Source: Promethearchaeota archaeon
GTDB taxonomy: Archaea; Asgardarchaeota; Lokiarchaeia; Sigynarchaeales; SOKP01
DNA length: 17,775 nucleotides
Direction of reading: 5' to 3'
NCBI GenBank assembly: GCA_019057735.1
Contig: JAHLWV010000020.1
Coordinates: forward strand, 1-17,775
Part shown: positions 7,354 to 16,625 of the stretch, one piece after another
Numbering within the stretch: position 1 is the stretch's first letter
How the letters are laid out: each line of letters starts with the position of its first letter
The notes under the pieces: generated by a model
What the model saw: the letters and a program-made list of their open reading frames with translations, nothing else
Database searches by the model: none
What the model was told of the DNA's origin: nothing
Translations under genes and position numbers: made by a program

Positions 7354-8379
7354 TTACAAATTAGTTGTTAATTTTCTAAATTTTATTTTTTTCTTTTTAT
7401 TTTGCTGTTTTGCCCATTTCTCTTTTTTGTACAAACCAACTTTTTTATACAGTTGTATTAGATAATCTAAAGATCCAGATCCTCCATATTCTACTATCGT
7501 TCCCCCTTGTTTTTTTATTTTTTTTAATTTCCTATATTTTTTTTTGTCAAGTTTTTTCTCTACTTTATACAAACACAGAAAGGCCCTAATTCCCTTATTA
7601 TATAAACCTAAATAATTGCAAGCCACACCTAAATTAAATAAAAGTTCTCTATCATTTGGATTATATCTTAAACCGTATTCCGAAGATATCTTTGCTTTCT
7701 GATATGAAAGCCAGCACTCATGGTAATCGTGTTCTGCTTCTGCTTCGTCTATATACCTATTGCTGAATAATTGCATTATTTTCACAATTACAGTCTTGCT
7801 TAAAACCTCAAATTCTACTAATTCTACAATTTCATTATATAATTTATCAAGTGACAATATGTCGAGATCGTCGTAGAACATTACATCAGTCAAGTAAGGT
7901 TGAACTTTCCCTAAAATGCGCTCTATGTGCCCTATACCCATTTTTTCTTTTTTATAAAAATCAAATTGTGAAAATCTATTATCAAAAGTACTTTCAAATA
8001 TAGAAATTAACTCTTCAGCTTTATAATTTGTACTTGATTGCAAGGATTTCAATATATCTAATAAACATTTAATGGATTGCTCGTGTTGAAAAACCCATTT
8101 CAGAAGGTTTTCTCCTTCCTCTAAGAAATTATTTATAATTACTTTTGCTGCTGTTAGTCTAATTTCTTCACTTAAATCTGATGTCACCAAGTGCTCGTAA
8201 AACTCGAAAAACTTGTCTACCTCTAAATTCATCTCGCCTAATAACTCGACCGACCGCACTCGCAAATCTTCGTTGCTACTGCTCTCGATAAATGATTTTA
8301 AATAGCCAACCGCCACAGCCTTGTCTAACTCCTTGCATTGATACTTACGATGTATCTCAGTCGGATTTAAATCGGACAT
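7354..8379 (-). CDS. Helical-repeat protein with a TPR segment (paralogue of the divergent LRR gene)
   Basis: I place the start at the second Met (MSDLNPTEIHRKY), not at the in-frame ATG at 8436. A TATA box at 8405-8414 lies inside the longer version, 30 nt from this ATG, and the paralogue aligns from the same place. Residues 1-157 form an all-helical, HEAT-like module (NEDLRVRSVELLGEMN, SEEIRLTAAKVIINNF) closing with EKMGIGHIERILG. Residues about 245-276 match a TPR (NLGVACNYLGLYNKGIRAF). The C-terminus is rich in lysine. No signal peptide, membrane helix or catalytic motif is seen, so a cytoplasmic protein-binding scaffold is the likely role. It converges on the phospholipase gene with a 3-nt gap. 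The same N-terminal module fused to LRRs lies across the divergent promoter region. Confidence 0.82.
   Translation of the reverse strand: MSDLNPTEIHRKYQCKELDKAVAVGYLKSFIESSSNEDLRVRSVELLGEMNLEVDKFFEFYEHLVTSDLSEEIRLTAAKVIINNFLEEGENLLKWVFQHEQSIKCLLDILKSLQSSTNYKAEELISIFESTFDNRFSQFDFYKKEKMGIGHIERILGKVQPYLTDVMFYDDLDILSLDKLYNEIVELVEFEVLSKTVIVKIMQLFSNRYIDEAEAEHDYHECWLSYQKAKISSEYGLRYNPNDRELLFNLGVACNYLGLYNKGIRAFLCLYKVEKKLDKKKYRKLKKIKKQGGTIVEYGGSGSLDYLIQLYKKVGLYKKEKWAKQQNKKKKIKFRKLTTNL
7377..7404 (+). terminator. T-rich tract, probable archaeal terminator for the phospholipase gene
   Basis: Just past the phospholipase stop the + strand runs through several T tracts (TTTTATTTTTTTCTTTTTATTTT). Archaeal RNA polymerase terminates at such T-rich stretches. 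The tract is also the complement of the lysine-rich C-terminal codons of the convergent gene, so one sequence may serve both roles. No hairpin is present. Confidence 0.35.
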
Positions 8380-8404
8380 CTCATAACCTAAAAAGTAATT
8401 GCGA

Positions 8405-8414
8405 TTTATATAAA
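8405..8414 (-). promoter_or_regulatory. TATA box for the TPR protein gene
   Basis: TTTATATAAA is centred 30 nt upstream of the ATG at 8379. With the usual archaeal TATA-to-start distance of 25-28 nt, transcription would begin about 3-5 nt before that ATG, giving a near-leaderless message. This is the main reason for preferring the shorter start. Confidence 0.55.
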
Positions 8415-8500
8415 CAAAGAGGCAAGCTGAACACAAATTTATGATTGTAAAGATAAAGTTACAATTTACTTCAATTGAATCTATTTAAAAAAAAATATTA

Positions 8501-8666: not shown

Positions 8667-8691
8667 AATATGTATGGATAATATATTTGAG

Positions 8692-9585
8692 ATGCCCGAT
8701 TTTTCATATTTGACACCTGACGAAGTTTATCAGAAGTATAAGAATAAAGAAATCAAAAAATCTGTGGCTATCGCTTTACTAAGAGGAAAAATTCTTAAAA
8801 GCAAAAATAGCAAAATTTTGGATAGAATTTTTGACCTTCTTGAGTTATTTGATCTAAATCCAGAGCAACATTATTACCTATTAAGTTTTATGACTGAAAC
8901 TGATAAAAACATTTACATCAAAGAAAAAGCCTACAGAATCATAATACGAGATTATTTTGAGAGATGTAAAGGCTCGTTAAAATATTCGGTTATAAATGAA
9001 AACAAATTTAGAGTGATCTGTGCGATATACACTGAATTAAGTAAGAAAAATACTAGCGACGCGCAAAAACTAATCGACATCTTAGAAAAAAGGTTCTCGT
9101 GGAAACACACAAGCTTATATGATGTCAACTCAAAAGAAGCTATGGGATTGGGAATTATTGAACTAATATTTGGGGGCGTTGGAATTGGGGTTACTGAGCC
9201 TTGTGCTCTCGGTGAATGCTGTATCAATTTTAGAGCAGAAAATGGTCATGTAGTTAGCTTATTTGCAAATCGAGTGGATATTCCTTTGCTCGAAATTTTA
9301 CAAATATTTCCAGAATTAAGATCCTTAACGCTTGAAATGAGTTCTATTGATGAAGTCAAGGATATTGGGTATTTAGAGAAACTGGAGCATTTAGAAATAA
9401 CTTACTCTAATCTATCTGAAATTAAGAACCTAGAAACTCTAAAAAGTTTAAAAACATTGATATTAAACGGAAATGAGATTAAAACAATCAAAGGTCTTGA
9501 AAACCTAATAAATTTAGAAAAATTAGAATTAGATGAAAATCAAATTAAAGAAATCGAAAATCTTGAAAATCTTGATAAATTGTGA
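8692..9585 (+). CDS. Helical-module plus leucine-rich-repeat protein, C-terminus apparently truncated
   Basis: I chose the Met at 8692 (MPDFSYLTPDEVYQKYKNKE) because it fits the TATA box and the start of the paralogue; an in-frame ATG at 8674 adds six residues. Residues 1-161 align with the minus-strand neighbour: LTPDEVYQKYKNKEI against LNPTEIHRKYQCKEL, ending EAMGLGIIELIFG against EKMGIGHIERILG. Residues about 165-205 are a linker with ECCINFRAENGHVVSL. From residue 209 there are four 22-residue SDS22-like LRRs (LxxLxLxxNxIxxIxxLExL). The protein stops one residue into a fifth repeat with no capping motif, so the array looks cut short. LRRs bind proteins; a cytoplasmic scaffold or adaptor is inferred. 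Its last 57 nt overlap the minus-strand zinc-ribbon gene tail-to-tail. Confidence 0.83.
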   Translation: MPDFSYLTPDEVYQKYKNKEIKKSVAIALLRGKILKSKNSKILDRIFDLLELFDLNPEQHYYLLSFMTETDKNIYIKEKAYRIIIRDYFERCKGSLKYSVINENKFRVICAIYTELSKKNTSDAQKLIDILEKRFSWKHTSLYDVNSKEAMGLGIIELIFGGVGIGVTEPCALGECCINFRAENGHVVSLFANRVDIPLLEILQIFPELRSLTLEMSSIDEVKDIGYLEKLEHLEITYSNLSEIKNLETLKSLKTLILNGNEIKTIKGLENLINLEKLELDENQIKEIENLENLDKL

Positions 9586-10314
9586 GAATAACTTGTTTAT
9601 TTTTGGTATTGATTTTACATTTGATGTATTAGCTGCATTTTGTTTACTTTGTAGCTTTTTAGCCTTCTTCTTATCCAAAAGTTTCTTCATATTTTCGGTA
9701 AATTCCTTTTGATCAATAATATCCTTGTTTATTTGCTTTATTAAATATGTTATAATTTCCCTGATAATCTCAGCATCTTTAAGGCACTCCTCGTCGTCTT
9801 TTTCATGTATTCCCTCACTTAAAATCCCATGAAGTGTCTTTAACGGGTTAAATTGTTCAGGAAGCAAAGATTTTGGTAGGAGATCTTTTACGAGAGCTAT
9901 TTTTTCTTGAGCATTCTTACTCTTCTTTGTTTCCCTTAAAGCCATTTCATATTCTTGCTTTTCCCCTTCATTCATAAGTTGGAGTATCATGTCTAAAAAA
10001 TCATCAATTACTCCTTCTATAACCCGTCTATAATATGTGTTAGCGCCTATGCCATATCCTTGAGATTCACAAATTAAAGCATTTTTAAAAAATTTCAGGT
10101 ATTCTCCTAAAACTTTCTGAATATTGGGTTCAACAGATATATCCCAAGGGGGATATTGTCCAACTTTCAATATATACTTACGACTTTTATCAATTCTAAT
10201 AACAAAAATCCTACGATAATAATTACAATGAGCACAAAGATATCGAAGAATAACAACTTGCCCTCCCGAATCATCATTGAAAAAAGAAGAGATATCGGAA
10301 TAATCGTATTCCAT
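9529..10314 (-). CDS. Zinc-ribbon / DUF4145-like (HEPN-type) helical protein
   Basis: From the first ATG, residues 25-40 hold half a zinc ribbon (LCAHC, C27 and C30). Residues 70-195 resemble DUF4145-type, HEPN-like helical domains: ALICESQGYGIGANTYYRRV, then a conserved-looking LHGILSEGIHEKDDEE and IREIITYL. The canonical HEPN Rx4-6H motif is not evident, so nuclease activity should not be assumed. Residues 200-240 are basic, and the last 22 (NKLFSQFIKIFKIFDFFNLI and two more) are hydrophobic and read from the strand opposite the LRR gene, so the tail may be acquired. The matching Cys pair of the zinc ribbon is encoded upstream of this ATG in the same open frame (next entry), so the gene is probably longer at its 5' end or damaged there. 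Function unknown. Confidence 0.72.
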   Translation of the reverse strand: MEYDYSDISSFFNDDSGGQVVILRYLCAHCNYYRRIFVIRIDKSRKYILKVGQYPPWDISVEPNIQKVLGEYLKFFKNALICESQGYGIGANTYYRRVIEGVIDDFLDMILQLMNEGEKQEYEMALRETKKSKNAQEKIALVKDLLPKSLLPEQFNPLKTLHGILSEGIHEKDDEECLKDAEIIREIITYLIKQINKDIIDQKEFTENMKKLLDKKKAKKLQSKQNAANTSNVKSIPKINKLFSQFIKIFKIFDFFNLIFI

Positions 10315-10465: not shown

Positions 10466-10544
10466 CTTAAACTTATTATGGATATATAAGAAAACTTTAT
10501 TATAACTTTGCTTTTTACTTTTTTTTTAAAAGTTAATCATAGAG

Positions 10545-10552
10545 TTTAAATA
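10545..10552 (+). promoter_or_regulatory. TATA box for the HTH/Panacea-like/MazF operon
   Basis: TTTAAATA is centred about 24-25 nt before the ATG at 10573, with A/G residues just upstream as a BRE-like element. This spacing fits a leaderless transcript, and no Shine-Dalgarno is seen before that ATG. Autoregulation by the first gene product through this site would be typical of such operons, but no operator repeat is obvious. Confidence 0.5.
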
Positions 10553-10572
10553 GTTTAATACTTATTATTGAT

Positions 10573-10917
10573 ATGAAACAAATGGATATTGATCAACAGA
10601 ATTTCGTAAAAGATCTAATTGAAAATTCAAAAAGAATTAATTCTAAAGCTTTTACATTAACGCGGTGCATTCTTTTAGCAATTATGAGTTATAATAAGGA
10701 TGGACTTCAATTTCGCGAATTGACATCCCTTTTAAATATTACGGATGGAAAATTGAAGTCGAACCTCGACTTTTTAGGAGATGTCGGATATATAAATAAA
10801 GTACAAATCCAACTTGACCAAAGAAAATTGCACATTTACCTCATTACTAAATCGGGAGAAAATGAACTAAAAAAAATTATTAATTGGATTAGAATTTTGG
10901 CAAATATTGAGTGTTAA
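10573..10917 (+). CDS. Winged-helix DNA-binding transcriptional regulator (HTH_34/MarR-like)
   Basis: The 114-residue protein is essentially one winged-helix domain. A helix at 31-41 (RCILLAIMSYN) is followed by the turn and second helix (QFRELTSLLN), the recognition helix at about 57-71 (TDGKLKSNLDFLGDVGYI), a beta wing at 74-91 (NKVQIQLDQRKLHIYLITKSG) and a final helix. TDGKLKSNLDFL followed by GYI is typical of PF13601-type regulators. It is the first gene of a tight operon: the next ATG comes 4 nt after its stop. It most likely represses its own operon. The partnership with the downstream toxin-like gene is inferred from position only. Confidence 0.85.
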   Translation: MKQMDIDQQNFVKDLIENSKRINSKAFTLTRCILLAIMSYNKDGLQFRELTSLLNITDGKLKSNLDFLGDVGYINKVQIQLDQRKLHIYLITKSGENELKKIINWIRILANIEC

Positions 10918-10921
10918 AAGT

Positions 10922-11488
10922 ATGAATGAGATAAATAAGGATTTTGAAAAAGTAATCGCAATTCTAAAGCGTTTAAATTTAAATTTAAAGGACCCAAAAC
11001 GAGCCACCAACTTTCAGACGAGGTTAGTTATCCAAAAAATTGTATTTTTGAGTAAGTTTATGAAGATTAAGCTTAATAGTTATAACTTTGGTCTCTATAA
11101 AAATGGTCCATACTCACCTGATTTAACCGCAGATTATTATCAAAATAATGAATTAATAACTACTTTAGACACTGTTGTTCAATTGACACCAAAAGAGAAA
11201 GAAGTCGTCGACAATATCAACGATTTAATATTAAATCATCCTCTAAATGATTATCATCAAGCAGATTTTCTTGAAGCTATTTCCACGGCCTATTACTTTA
11301 AATATTATAATGAAGCTTTATTGGACGATGATCTCTTTGAAAAAACAAAAGCAGAGAAACCATATATTAGTGATAAGATAATTGTTATCGCAATTAATAC
11401 AGTTAAAAAATTATTATTTAAACCAGAATATCTAACTGAAGATATTAGGAAAGAGTTAGCTCTATGGGATAATGTAAATGACGAATAA
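10922..11488 (+). CDS. YwgA/Panacea-like protein, candidate antitoxin
   Basis: I chose the ATG at 10922, 4 nt after the regulator stop; an in-frame TTG at 10907 would add five residues and overlap it. Near residues 33-70 the pattern RLVIQKIVFLSKFMKIKL then YNFGLYKNGPYSPDL matches the QK(L/I)xYL and YxYGPYSP signature of YwgA-type proteins, and loosely that of the Panacea (DUF4065) domain. The remainder is helical and acidic towards the end (ELALWDNVNDE). Panacea domains are known as antitoxins that neutralise varied toxins. A MazF-type toxin starts 11 nt downstream, so an antitoxin role is a reasonable inference. No MazE-like AbrB fold is present. Assignment to YwgA or to Panacea proper would need a profile search. 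Confidence 0.82.
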   Translation: MNEINKDFEKVIAILKRLNLNLKDPKRATNFQTRLVIQKIVFLSKFMKIKLNSYNFGLYKNGPYSPDLTADYYQNNELITTLDTVVQLTPKEKEVVDNINDLILNHPLNDYHQADFLEAISTAYYFKYYNEALLDDDLFEKTKAEKPYISDKIIVIAINTVKKLLFKPEYLTEDIRKELALWDNVNDE

Positions 11489-11499
11489 TTAAGAATACG

Positions 11500-11865
11500 A
11501 TGACGAAAAAAATATACGAAAAAATAAAACCGGGGGAAATCTGGTGGGTAAACTTATCAAGCAACCTTGACGATACAATTGGGCACGAAACTCAAAAAAC
11601 GCGTCCCTGTCTTGTAGTTGCAAATTGTAAAGATACTAAGTTTCTAATTATTATCCCTTTTCAATCCAATTTAGATGTTAACCGCCTTCCTCATACTCTT
11701 ACAATTAAAAAACATCAAAACAATGGTTTAAAGAACGATTCAGTAGCTATTATTTTCCAAATGAGATCGATTGATTATATGAGAATCAGAAGTTATAGTG
11801 GAACTATTAGAAATAATGATTTAATTAAAATTAAAAATATAATCAAGGATTTATTGAGTTTATAA
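11500..11865 (+). CDS. MazF/PemK-family toxin (endoribonuclease)
   Basis: The 121-residue length is normal for MazF. Residues 10-42 carry the family opening: KPGEIWWVNLSS, then GHETQKTRPCLVVAN, where E30 and R35 correspond to conserved E24 and R29 of Escherichia coli MazF. Residues 75-95 give GLKNDSVAIIFQMRSIDYMR, matching the second conserved block (GxxxDSxxxxxQxRxxDxxR). The family cleaves mRNA or other RNA at short sequences and slows growth; the sequence specificity here is not predictable. The gene starts 11 nt after the Panacea-like gene. A membrane-protein gene follows 8 nt after its stop. Nothing looks broken, so the toxin is probably active and needs a neutraliser. Confidence 0.92.
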   Translation: MTKKIYEKIKPGEIWWVNLSSNLDDTIGHETQKTRPCLVVANCKDTKFLIIIPFQSNLDVNRLPHTLTIKKHQNNGLKNDSVAIIFQMRSIDYMRIRSYSGTIRNNDLIKIKNIIKDLLSL

Positions 11866-11873
11866 GGAAAATT

Positions 11874-12494
11874 ATGTCTGAAAGAGATGGTAAATTAAAT
11901 ACTCTGTTAATAGAGATAGTAATTGGGATTATAGCCGAAATGGTAGTTGTAATACTATTTTCTGTTAATATATTTATACCAATTATCATTGGGATTATTA
12001 TTTTCATCTTTCTTATTTTAAGGGTAAAGAAAAATGAACTTTTTATCATTAATCGAATTATTTTTATTCTTAAAAAATATGAAAAGATAAAATACAATAA
12101 TCAAAAAGAAAAGAAGAAAGCTAGGAAGTTTGGAACATTGCTAGATAATGGAAGCGAAAAATTAGAGAAATTGGGATTTAATATTCAACATAATGGAGAT
12201 ACTGTTAAAAATAATTTCTTTGGAATACATCTTACAAGAAAGAATAGATTTATATATCAATTTTTAATAAGAAGATTAGAAAATAGTCAAATTAAAAGAC
12301 CAGATGAAGCATATTTTTCAGAAGGGTATCCAGAGCCTATGAAAGAAAAAAGTAATGCTCAAGTTTTATATGAATTTATTGAATATCTTAAAAATAAAAA
12401 GAAATTCTCAAGAATTTATAAATTTTTGAGTATTAAAAAAAGTAATTCTAATAAGAAACGGTTAAACATAAAGAACAAGTTAAAGAACACATAA
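11874..12494 (+). CDS. Small two-helix membrane protein with basic cytoplasmic domain, unknown function
   Basis: Two close hydrophobic helices at about residues 10-31 and 33-51 (LLIEIVIGIIAEMVVVILF; IFIPIIIGIIIFIFLIL) form a hairpin. After them comes a lysine-rich segment at 65-85, a small soluble part with GFNIQHNGDTVKNNFFGIHL, and another basic tail. I recognise no family. It is translated from an AAGGA site at 11864-11868 that overlaps the MazF stop codon, so it belongs to the same operon. It could be a membrane anchor or effector for the module. No catalytic motif is visible. Codon use is as AT-rich as its neighbours. Confidence 0.72.
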   Translation: MSERDGKLNTLLIEIVIGIIAEMVVVILFSVNIFIPIIIGIIIFIFLILRVKKNELFIINRIIFILKKYEKIKYNNQKEKKKARKFGTLLDNGSEKLEKLGFNIQHNGDTVKNNFFGIHLTRKNRFIYQFLIRRLENSQIKRPDEAYFSEGYPEPMKEKSNAQVLYEFIEYLKNKKKFSRIYKFLSIKKSNSNKKRLNIKNKLKNT

Positions 12495-12561: not shown

Positions 12562-12798
12562 ATGGGCAATACATATATTGATGGTAATGGATACAAACGC
12601 TATCGTGATTCTAACAAACTAGTACATAGATATATCGCAGAAAGGAAACTCGGACGAAAATTACGCGCTGGTGAAGTCGTACACCATAAAAATAGAAATA
12701 AACGAGATAATAGAAGGACAAACCTTTGGGTTTTTAAATCCCAACGGAAACACTATAGAATCCATAAAAAAGATGAAGAAGAAACTGGAAGATGGTGA
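12562..12798 (+). CDS. Small HNH endonuclease (HNH_3-type)
   Basis: The 78-residue protein is close to the minimal HNH_3 fold. GNGYKRYRDSNKLVHRYIAE is the DNA-contacting strand and first helix. EVVHHKNRNKRDNRRTNLWV gives the metal-binding core (H41-H42, N50, N54), and H64/H68 lie in the last helix. Such small proteins occur in phages and as free-standing homing-type nickases or nucleases. It has an unusually perfect Shine-Dalgarno (GGAGGTGAT, 12550-12558) with 5-nt spacing, whereas the upstream operon shows weak sites. It lies 67 nt after the membrane-protein gene, so co-transcription is possible. It could be a mobile passenger or part of the defence-like block. Confidence 0.88.
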   Translation: MGNTYIDGNGYKRYRDSNKLVHRYIAERKLGRKLRAGEVVHHKNRNKRDNRRTNLWVFKSQRKHYRIHKKDEEETGRW

Positions 12799-12854: not shown

Positions 12855-15800
12855 TTACTTGTTTTTTGTGAGATAGGTTTTTAGTTCTTTTTCAAATATG
12901 AAATCAACATCATAATTTTGAACATATATAGATGGAAAATTACGCCTAATTACAAATCCTTTCTTAATTTTCCATTCTGATTTATCTTCAATTTTGAAGT
13001 AGTCTAAAAATAAATTAATATTCTCAGAAACAAATTTTTCTTTTTTCTTGAGTTTTATGAAATCTGAATTCTCATTTGTTAAAATTTTACTAATCTGATT
13101 CTTTATATCATAGGGATGTAATTTAAGATAATAATTCTTTGCATCTATTACGAAGATTATCTTAATTGCGGGATTTATAGCAAGAAGATCAATCTCTCCA
13201 CAATCTGGGAATTTTGGAAGATCTTCAGAAATATTATTGAATTTTTTCAATCTTAAAATATAATTCTTTTCTCCCAAAACATCTTTTACAATCTCTCCAC
13301 ATAAATCTTCAAAACTTTTATCTCTGTACGAATGGATAAGGCTTAAAGCTTGCGATATAGAAGAGTTTGCTGAAATACGAAATGGGAAAACTCCCGAAAA
13401 TATAAAATGACGCCATAAGTTAAAGCTAACATGACAACATTCATGTCCGAATATGATTTCATCGTCCTTGTTTAATTTGATGAGAGGACAAATAGTTAAA
13501 CGCTCTTTCTTTTTCAATAGTTTAAGTTGAAGGAGAATTTCTTCATCTCTATAAGATTTGAAATCTAAGCTAAGATACTGAATTATATTACTTATCACTT
13601 TTTTTGTAATAGAACTCGATTCTGAGCCTAATACATCTTGAATTCCTTCAAATTGGCTTTTATAATGTATTAGGATTTCGTTTATTAAATCTTTAGTTAT
13701 GATTCTAATAATGGGAAAAAATCCTTGTTTCTTTGTTTCAATCTCGCCTGTACTTAAAATAAAAAGGATTCTCATCATATCAGTAAAAGTAAAGCCAAAT
13801 TCTTCTAAAAATGCCGTTTCTAATCCCACTAATAATTTTCTTTCATTATCGTCCAAGATGGACTTTGATTTTTCATTCTGTTTATCTTGATTAATTTCAC
13901 TTTCAAGGAGACTTCTTGAAATCTCAATTTTACCATCAAATTCCTTATCTATATATGTATCATAATCAAAAGTGGTAGGTTCTTGGATCTCATCAAATTC
14001 ATAATGATCCTTTATTTGAATTAGATTATCTAATACTTTAGAATGCGTGAAGTCAGATCTTTGTGAAATAATTACCAAGTAGCTAGAAAGTGCTTGAAGA
14101 TATCCATAATCAATAGCATTTATCTTTTTCCTCCCAGCTAGACCAATATTTAATATATTTTCTATTAAAAATCTGGTGGAACTAGATAAATTCATTATTT
14201 CTCCCATTTTTTTTCTAAAATATTTTAAATAATTTAAATCAAGCAATTCATTGCTCTTCATCCCTGTTTCCATTAATAATTGGTATCTTCTTGCTTCAAT
14301 TAGTTCTAACTCTGCATAAGCCTTTAAGAGTAGATTTAAATCATAAGATGAAATTTCTTCTCGTAATTTCTCGTATAGAAAACGATAAACTTCGTTATAA
14401 ATATTTTTAGATTCTCCAGGGGAGTATGCTCTTTTTTCAATCGATTTTTCTCTAAAATACGCCTTTACATACTTTATTATTATTTCTTGATCTCCTTGAT
14501 GGACTTTTTGATAAGGTGGATATGAATTTATCTGAGGATTCCAAGCAGGGGTTTTTATTGCGAGATAATCTTTTTCACCACCTTTAAAATGCATTCTTAA
14601 GAAATCTTCAATTTTAAATACCTTTTCTTGTTCAATCAGTTCTGCTTCGAAGAGATCAATGATGCTTCTTAAGAATTGAGAAATGGCATATTTACAATTA
14701 TCATTTTTTTGTTGGTTTTTAAATTTTTCACACCATAATTCAAAATCATAAAAAACAAGAGATATTAATTTAAAATTAGCATTGATAAAACTTGTAGTGA
14801 TTATAGGATCATCTAAATTGATTTTTAACCAGATTTCCTTGAACCTTTCAACTTTGGGATTTTTTTTACACATTCTTATAGGAATTAAATATAATCCGTG
14901 AAGTTTATATCCAGAATAAGATGCTATTAGTTCATTAAGTGGATTTAAAATTCTTTGAAGATAGTCGGCATACATCGGACCGATTACTCGCATAGCAAAT
15001 CTGAAATCATCTAGGTCTAAATTTTGATTTTGAAGGGGGTTAAAAAACCAAATCAATCTATTTTCAGTTTTTATAATATTTGCTCCTTGAAGGGTATATG
15101 TGTCAAAACATTCATATAGATCTTGCTCTTCATTCCATTTCTTTATAAGGTTATATTTATGAGGGTAATCTTTTTCAACTAGTTCATAAATATTATCTTT
15201 GTATTTATCAAAAAGGTGCTTGGTGTAATAGTCAATCCAAAAATTAGGACCCAAAAACAACATATCTTCTCCATAATCAGGTATGGATTCGTTACTCATG
15301 AGATATACTGCGAGTATATTGATTCCATTAATATTAAAAAGCTTATCTCTATATTGCTCTCTCTCTTGTAAATATTTAATAAATGAATTTTTTGATGGTA
15401 ACAGTTCAAACATAGAAATGAGATCCTTAAGACTAAAGAGTTGTTCTGAGAAATTCGTTTTGAAATTCATGTCAATTTGATGAAATCCAGATCTTATGCT
15501 TTCAAAGACAGTAATGGTTACTATACGAAGTTCTTTTATAGGAATTCTATATGAATGGTTTTCATTTAATACTAAAAATATTTCTTCTTCATTTTGAATT
15601 CTTTTAACATATTGCTCCAGTAATTCATGTGCTTCATTTATTCCTTCAGATAATTCTTTTGATAAGGGATTTACAAGCTTGAACAATAGGAGATAATCTT
15701 CATAAAATATTTTTAGATCAAAATTCTCAGAAAACATTTCAGTTTTATTCCCAATCGCTATAATAAAATTTTCAGGACTAAAAAAACGACCACTAAGAAA

Positions 15801-16625
15801 TCTAAATCTAGATATCAGATTTCTGATGATGCTAGAGTTTAGGTTCTCTATATCAGAGGAATTTTTAATCACATCAAGAAAGAGGGAGGGGAGTAATTCA
15901 AGATGAAGTTGCGGAAGTATGAAATATTGATCTTTCGAAGTCTTGATAAAGAGATGTTTAAAATAATTGCCTTCTTTCAATTTTTTTAAATCCTCAAGTG
16001 TTTCAAATGATGATTCTCCAAATTTTAGTACAAAATTTTCATTTGAAACCGATCTAGGAATTAGAAAATGACTACAGAATTTTTCGAGGAATTCTTGAGG
16101 GGGGACTTGAAATTCATCTAAATTATAAGATTTATTGGCAAATTCTTGTTTTAAATCAATCAATAATCTTGTTTGAAAGATTAAACTCTGTAAAAATAAG
16201 TGTTGAACATTGGATAGTTCACTAGAAGGGGATTGATGGGGTAGCAAGAAAATCCAATCTAAAACGCGTAATGATTCATACGGTCTCTCTGTAATTCCAT
16301 AAAAAAAAAAGAATTTGCGTTTTCTATAGAAATACGGAATTAATTTGAGCTGATCGAAAATATAAAAATCTTCAACAGCAATATGATTTGTTTTGTCTTT
16401 AAAATTTGTAACGAACTCTTTGAAATCATCATAACCTAATTTCTCATCTTGGAACTCATCTTCCTTCATTGAAAGGATTATAGCTATCAATAGTTCAAAT
16501 CTCAATTGATATTTCTGATTTCCGGGGTAAATTGAGCATGTTTGTATCCATTTCATTAATATTTCAGGCGTATATTGTTTCATCCATTTCTTAGTTTGAT
16601 TGATGATACATTTAAATTTCTCCAT
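12855..16625 (-). CDS. 1256-residue protein with C-terminal PD-(D/E)XK nuclease domain
   Basis: The first 1000 or so residues are mainly helical, without a P-loop, helicase or protease motif that I can see. The C-terminal 170 residues hold a restriction-endonuclease-like fold: helix SFEDLCGEIVKDVLG (E1106 or E1111), then CGEIDLLAI with D1146, then IIFVIDAKNYYL with D1161 and K1163 as the (D/E)XK pair, and Q1177 in the next helix. Just before it, GHECCH (1060-1065) is a Cys/His cluster that might bind metal. The layout, a long helical body and a terminal GEID...(D/E)AK nuclease, recalls large uncharacterised bacterial proteins found near defence genes. Cleavage of foreign DNA or RNA is inferred; the sensor and target are unknown. 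The ATG overlaps a short upstream ORF by 14 nt and has only a weak AAAGG site. Confidence 0.9.
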   Translation of the reverse strand: MEKFKCIINQTKKWMKQYTPEILMKWIQTCSIYPGNQKYQLRFELLIAIILSMKEDEFQDEKLGYDDFKEFVTNFKDKTNHIAVEDFYIFDQLKLIPYFYRKRKFFFFYGITERPYESLRVLDWIFLLPHQSPSSELSNVQHLFLQSLIFQTRLLIDLKQEFANKSYNLDEFQVPPQEFLEKFCSHFLIPRSVSNENFVLKFGESSFETLEDLKKLKEGNYFKHLFIKTSKDQYFILPQLHLELLPSLFLDVIKNSSDIENLNSSIIRNLISRFRFLSGRFFSPENFIIAIGNKTEMFSENFDLKIFYEDYLLLFKLVNPLSKELSEGINEAHELLEQYVKRIQNEEEIFLVLNENHSYRIPIKELRIVTITVFESIRSGFHQIDMNFKTNFSEQLFSLKDLISMFELLPSKNSFIKYLQEREQYRDKLFNINGINILAVYLMSNESIPDYGEDMLFLGPNFWIDYYTKHLFDKYKDNIYELVEKDYPHKYNLIKKWNEEQDLYECFDTYTLQGANIIKTENRLIWFFNPLQNQNLDLDDFRFAMRVIGPMYADYLQRILNPLNELIASYSGYKLHGLYLIPIRMCKKNPKVERFKEIWLKINLDDPIITTSFINANFKLISLVFYDFELWCEKFKNQQKNDNCKYAISQFLRSIIDLFEAELIEQEKVFKIEDFLRMHFKGGEKDYLAIKTPAWNPQINSYPPYQKVHQGDQEIIIKYVKAYFREKSIEKRAYSPGESKNIYNEVYRFLYEKLREEISSYDLNLLLKAYAELELIEARRYQLLMETGMKSNELLDLNYLKYFRKKMGEIMNLSSSTRFLIENILNIGLAGRKKINAIDYGYLQALSSYLVIISQRSDFTHSKVLDNLIQIKDHYEFDEIQEPTTFDYDTYIDKEFDGKIEISRSLLESEINQDKQNEKSKSILDDNERKLLVGLETAFLEEFGFTFTDMMRILFILSTGEIETKKQGFFPIIRIITKDLINEILIHYKSQFEGIQDVLGSESSSITKKVISNIIQYLSLDFKSYRDEEILLQLKLLKKKERLTICPLIKLNKDDEIIFGHECCHVSFNLWRHFIFSGVFPFRISANSSISQALSLIHSYRDKSFEDLCGEIVKDVLGEKNYILRLKKFNNISEDLPKFPDCGEIDLLAINPAIKIIFVIDAKNYYLKLHPYDIKNQISKILTNENSDFIKLKKKEKFVSENINLFLDYFKIEDKSEWKIKKGFVIRRNFPSIYVQNYDVDFIFEKELKTYLTKNK

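Follow-up and report, generated by a model that had tools for sequence, protein, structure and literature searches.

Known systems and the cassette of the window

In MazEF of E. coli the MazF gene directly follows that of its partner, and the same holds for the cassette described here, for which an autoregulated operon is likewise expected. The partner in MazEF is an AbrB-type MazE, whereas the present one does not resemble AbrB or MazE (no MazE match in Pfam, NCBIfam or PHROGs) and the DNA-binding and proposed toxin-binding parts are found in separate proteins. Another MazF-associated antitoxin family has been described in the accessible text of PMC2701414. The PanA-PanT modules (PF13274/DUF4065) have a distantly related core, which is combined with unrelated toxins, MazF-like ones included, and in some PanAs neutralising extensions are attached to this core (accessible text of PMC8832971 and PMC10440598). 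The present partner differs in having no PF13274 match and in standing nearer to YwgA-like proteins, and the regulator is separate and has its own operator; furthermore, third genes are rare in the accessible part of the PanA-PanT survey, whereas the trio has a conserved third gene. In DarTG the toxin is a different one, and the YwgA-like protein lacks the macrodomain and carries an added tail. The paaR-paaA-parE system, mentioned in the accessible part of PMC8832971, also distributes regulator, antitoxin and toxin over three genes, but all three families differ. The text searched of two papers on archaeal and Asgard defence (PMC12988326, PMC11291487) mentions neither MazF nor Panacea.

The DNA that we analysed, a stretch of 17,775 nucleotides from an Asgard archaeon of the Promethearchaeota (the window), carries the following features:

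10514..10536, no strand assigned: palindromic operator (predicted), TTTACTTT-N7-AAAGTTAA, 15/16 consensus positions
10545..10552, + strand: TATA-like box TTTAAATA, from sequence, by consensus only
10573..10917, + strand: winged-helix regulator (HTH_34), 114 aa, Pfam PF13601, E 5e-10
10922..11488, + strand: YwgA-like, distantly Panacea-like protein, 188 aa, proposed antitoxin
11414..11482, + strand: C-terminal tail of the YwgA-like protein, residues 165-187, from the tail profile, proposed MazF-binding element
11500..11865, + strand: MazF/PemK-family toxin, 121 aa, Pfam PF02452, E 1e-18
11874..12494, + strand: membrane protein of unknown function, no family above cut-off, probably outside the module

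The open reading frames bear out the order of the four genes and the spacings of 4, 11 and 8 nt that were given in an earlier interpretation made without database searches (the sequence-only reading), and Pfam agrees with its identification of the regulator and the toxin. The PF02452 match reaches 67.7 bits against a cut-off of 23.1, and the protein resembles solved MazF/Kid structures. The 188-aa protein has no match in Pfam or NCBIfam and a weak one in PADLOC (PDC-M19A, 3e-4). Its nearest named relatives are Lokiarchaeota and Promethearchaeota records, and the name YwgA was taken from a single source's label for its homologues. The position of the TATA-like box is compatible with a leaderless transcript. 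RNA families and tRNAs were not found in the window.

We consider it likely that the first three genes constitute a type II toxin-antitoxin module of three components. The toxin would be MazF, by family an RNA-cleaving enzyme, and the YwgA-like protein, the core of which has the fold of a probable DarG antitoxin chain, would neutralise it, with the tail docking on MazF. The winged-helix protein would serve the module as its dedicated regulator; it would bind the palindrome beside the TATA box in the promoter of its own gene and thereby control expression of the trio. In this way, the two jobs of MazE would be divided between regulator and antitoxin. The antitoxin role is assigned to the YwgA-like protein because of its fold, tail and position. 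At the level of sequence, support for the module comes from the gene order and its recurrence, the exclusive linkage of the regulator and MazF clades to the YwgA-like gene, the near-unique operator, the association of tail and MazF, and the fold match. What is new is this putative MazF module, in which the partner is tailed and of YwgA fold and regulation would fall to a separate protein with a near-unique predicted operator.

Other genes of the window include one for a 261-aa protein of unknown function (9529-10314, - strand; phrog_25239, E 2e-39), just upstream of the operator on the opposite strand, a divergent pair (7354-8436, - strand, and 8674-9585) of which the N-terminal parts look alike by eye and one member has leucine-rich repeats, and one for a 1256-aa protein (12855-16625, - strand) with a sub-threshold NERD match at the C terminus as its sole match.

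Recurrence of the trio and status of the membrane gene

A profile of the YwgA-like protein was built from 39 homologues and used to search 227 Promethearchaeota genomes other than that of the window; the first 14-20 candidates of each genome were scored, and the resulting counts are lower bounds. Relatives (E <= 1e-5) were recovered from at least 25 of the 227 genomes, and the complete trio, with all genes open and in the same order, from at least nine loci in eight genomes (G001 twice, G002, G091, G092, G095, G098, G101 and G133), the flanks of which differ. The gene order also recurs in a second phylum, that of a Nitrosocosmicus genome, where at least 31 of 398 genomes contained a YwgA-like relative and at least two the trio (L106 and L107; the start of the L106 MazF looks irregular). 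Since the three-gene order recurs elsewhere, the arrangement is more than chance. The gaps in 12 measured loci range from -23 to +4 nt between regulator and YwgA-like gene and from -22 to +15 nt between the latter and MazF, so the genes overlap or nearly touch. Within the 227 genomes the regulator and MazF clades occurred exclusively beside a YwgA-like gene: among the matches listed, this was the case for all 15 regulator matches at E <= 1e-12 (weakest 9e-41; 13 genomes) and for all 12 MazF matches at E <= 6e-43, after which the next-best MazF matches were at 3e-20 and 2e-15. Among metagenomic sequences, six of 22 MazF relatives have a longest contig of the same size as that of a YwgA-like relative (9938, 3951, 2958, 11350, 7459 and 1261). 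The earlier suggestion that regulator, antitoxin-like protein and MazF form a recurring unit is thus supported, and the sequence evidence for the trio as a unit is strong.

Several loci deviate from the complete arrangement. MazF contains an in-frame stop in L048 and its place is taken by a TnpB-type gene (OrfB_IS605, E 2e-22) in L044, regulator and YwgA-like gene being open in both; L042 and L047 have these two genes without MazF; in L053 MazF is located upstream of the regulator; L049 and L055 are partial, cut by contig ends, and L056 contains fragments. Carriage of the cassette by mobile elements was considered and rejected, as YwgA-like relatives were not found in viral contigs, phages or plasmids. 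In L043, L050, L052 and L056 the vicinity of the cassette also contains PIN-like genes accompanied by small partners (sub-threshold matches to PIN families in L043 and L050, no match in L052), which suggests surroundings rich in toxin-antitoxin genes.

The residues E24, R29 and T52 of E. coli MazF are presumably catalytic or active-site residues. The counterparts of Glu24 and Arg29 are kept in the MazF of the window, and the Thr52 position is occupied by Gln, as it is in all 21 members of the lineage that were examined (the window, L001 and 19 metagenomic MazFs). The active site of this lineage may be altered. One could imagine that its MazF has given up the role of a toxin and works instead as an RNase in regulation or as a subunit that binds RNA, in line with a Gln that is fixed rather than decaying. 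Considering the retained Arg and Glu, the Thr (nine) or Ser (three) at this position in the other trio MazFs, and the loss or disruption of MazF beside two intact genes in L044 and L048, which is what one expects of a toxin, we regard such a change of role as very unlikely.

Elsewhere in the phylum, classic pairs also occur: MazFs outside the trio clade follow MazE-like genes in L079 and L092-L094, and the one partner scanned (L093) gave a MazE_antitoxin match below cut-off. In 11 further loci (L077, L078, L080-L087 and L091) the gene ahead of MazF encodes a protein of ~220-310 aa, possibly another unrecognised MazF partner; the two that were scanned had no Pfam match.

The sequence-only reading had proposed a four-gene system with the membrane protein, which by eye has two hydrophobic stretches near its N terminus, as a working partner. 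The 8-nt gap that separates its gene from MazF would fit such a role. Moreover, the metagenomic contig size 9938 is common to close relatives of three of the proteins, namely the YwgA-like protein, MazF and the membrane protein (113 aa in the case of the last), which implies that the neighbourhood is kept in the closest kin of the window. The membrane-protein family, however, with 18 database members including that of the window, was recovered from at least six of the 227 genomes (G106, G115, G118, G129, G131 and G142), all without the trio, and relatives were absent from loci L001-L038 and L106/L107. We therefore rejected the membrane gene as a module part; a four-gene system is highly improbable and the gene is probably a mere neighbour. 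A small HNH endonuclease gene (12562-12798; PF13392, E 1e-11), the start of which is preceded by a GGAGGTGAT stretch, was rejected as well, being located 67 nt past the membrane gene and absent from the trio loci among L001-L038.

The palindrome upstream of the regulator

The start coordinate of the sequence-only reading lies just past a palindrome (10514-10536), which that reading missed. All 18 loci examined have its consensus, TTTACTTT-N7-AAAGTAAA, ahead of the regulator gene, with 13-16 of the 16 positions matched and a start 45 to 75 nt before the start codon, a score that was reached by at most 0.8% of shuffled upstream regions. Some of these loci are near copies, and L054-L057, in which no regulator was found, were left out; the set takes in the MazF-less L042 and L047, L053 with its changed gene order, and the two loci from the second phylum. 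Across the 227 genomes the exact pattern is present 12 times, once in each of 12 genomes, and 11 of these sites are at the promoters of these regulators; the twelfth (in G118) is within an open reading frame. A reversed control pattern was present in six of the genomes. No comparable palindrome was seen at the HTH genes upstream of the tailless L124 and L129.

The 18 loci have, as far as the sequence goes, a dedicated operator at the module promoter, as is found in type II toxin-antitoxin modules, and we take the palindrome to be the predicted site of the regulator. The TATA-like box follows 8 nt downstream of the operator, and therefore both repression at the TFB/TBP site and activation are possible. 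The regulator would presumably repress by hindering TFB/TBP, with activation as the alternative.

The YwgA-like protein, its tail and its partners

The earlier label 'Panacea-like' holds for the 188-aa protein as a distant relation only. In hhalign comparisons the family matched nine solo archaeal YwgA-like proteins at 99.6% (E 3e-24, 152 columns), which makes these its nearest kin; the solo proteins matched Panacea PF13274 at 95.3%, and the family of the window matched PF13274 directly at 79% across 40 columns. Not one of the 39 members of the alignment showed PF13274 at E <= 1. Homology across the core places the protein among the YwgA-like proteins. The core has the same fold as the C-terminal domain of DarG (7yk3 chain B), at a sequence identity of 15%; this chain is probably DarG, the title of the entry naming the complex alone. 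The domain has been reported to mimic ssDNA and to block DarT (accessible text of PMC11481870). A PDB sequence search with the alignment gave chance-level xylanase matches only, and there were no structural matches among viral proteins at E <= 0.001. In the literature searched, where the word YwgA led to unrelated papers only, we found no paper that links YwgA with an antitoxin; an earlier description elsewhere is possible.

The MazF-linked YwgA-like proteins carry a tail of ~23 residues after the core (F.PE.LT.EI..EL.LWD...D). Rows with identical first 60 residues were merged and the better-neighboured row kept (L044 was thus merged into L045), which left 62 distinct YwgA-like rows. The tail profile scored above 10 bits in 15 of these, all 15 beside MazF, whereas of the 47 rows without a tail score two were beside MazF, namely the reordered L053 (row L022), in which a similar stretch can be seen by eye, and a fragment (row L024). 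In L044 the tail is kept though MazF is interrupted. One Promethearchaeota homologue in the 39-member alignment, P0038, lacks the tail. In a tree of the core, from which the tail columns were cut, the tailless and MazF-less L042 and L047 form a sister pair beside the window and L001 (94/92). Tail and toxin were apparently lost together there, either in a single joint loss or, at any rate, in fewer events than a raw count would indicate. Because most of the tailed proteins belong to a single clade, the association of tail and MazF rests on few independent events. Homology of the tail to that of MazE was considered and rejected: one of 45 comparisons gave p < 0.05 against shuffles, which is not beyond chance. 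A tethered model of YwgA-like protein and MazF as one chain (pTM 0.60) did not yield a folded MazF (pLDDT <50) and therefore speaks neither for nor against docking.

The roles could also be distributed differently, such that the winged-helix protein, or both upstream proteins jointly, would be the antitoxin and the YwgA-like protein mainly a sensor that frees MazF upon infection or stress, by analogy with Panacea domains. Both upstream genes are together in every trio locus, and a sensory role has been proposed for cases in which Panacea itself does not neutralise (accessible text of PMC10440598). In addition, L047 has the same regulator/YwgA pair, tailless, followed 9 nt past the stop codon by an AbiJ_NTD4 protein (E 4e-30; start codon uncertain), although this pairing was found in a single locus. 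The MazF-associated feature, however, sits on the YwgA-like protein and not on the regulator, and L042 and L047 retain both regulator and operator although they have no MazF, which makes such a distribution rather unlikely.

To return to the tailed YwgA-like protein as the putative antitoxin, its tailless relatives adjoin a variety of other genes. Of 20 scanned neighbours of YwgA-like genes, six were HD, six PIN-like, three winged-helix, one HicB-like and one ParE, and three had no match. The HD-domain genes (PF01966) directly adjoin the YwgA-like gene in L025, L026, L028, L030, L031 and L032, a recurring arrangement, all in Promethearchaeota. The PIN-like neighbours are in line in L114, L118, L120, L123 and L126 and convergent in L112; only those of L112 and L126 are above the Pfam cut-off. 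This diversity resembles that of the Panacea network, in which MazF-like toxins occur too (accessible text of PMC8832971 and PMC10440598). We tentatively put forward, as one possibility, that the YwgA fold is an archaeal toxin-control hub parallel to bacterial Panacea, in which the helical core shared with DarG has become paired in evolution with effectors of unrelated families (MazF, AbiJ_NTD4, PIN-like and HD proteins), the tail serving as a plug-in MazF adaptor and the core perhaps as a trigger sensor; to this the trio would add a dedicated regulator with an operator that is almost unique per genome.

The recurrence of the cassette in other archaea suggests a mix-and-match toxin control system. 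The proposed MazF antitoxin would have an unexpected fold and would belong to those archaea that stand closest to eukaryotes, the predicted regulator/operator pair is defined to the base, and the short tail makes for a sharp prediction. The comparison joins the literatures on YwgA, Panacea and DarG, which are separate in the literature searched. If the tail is indeed an adaptor, it would show how one antitoxin core swaps toxin partners.
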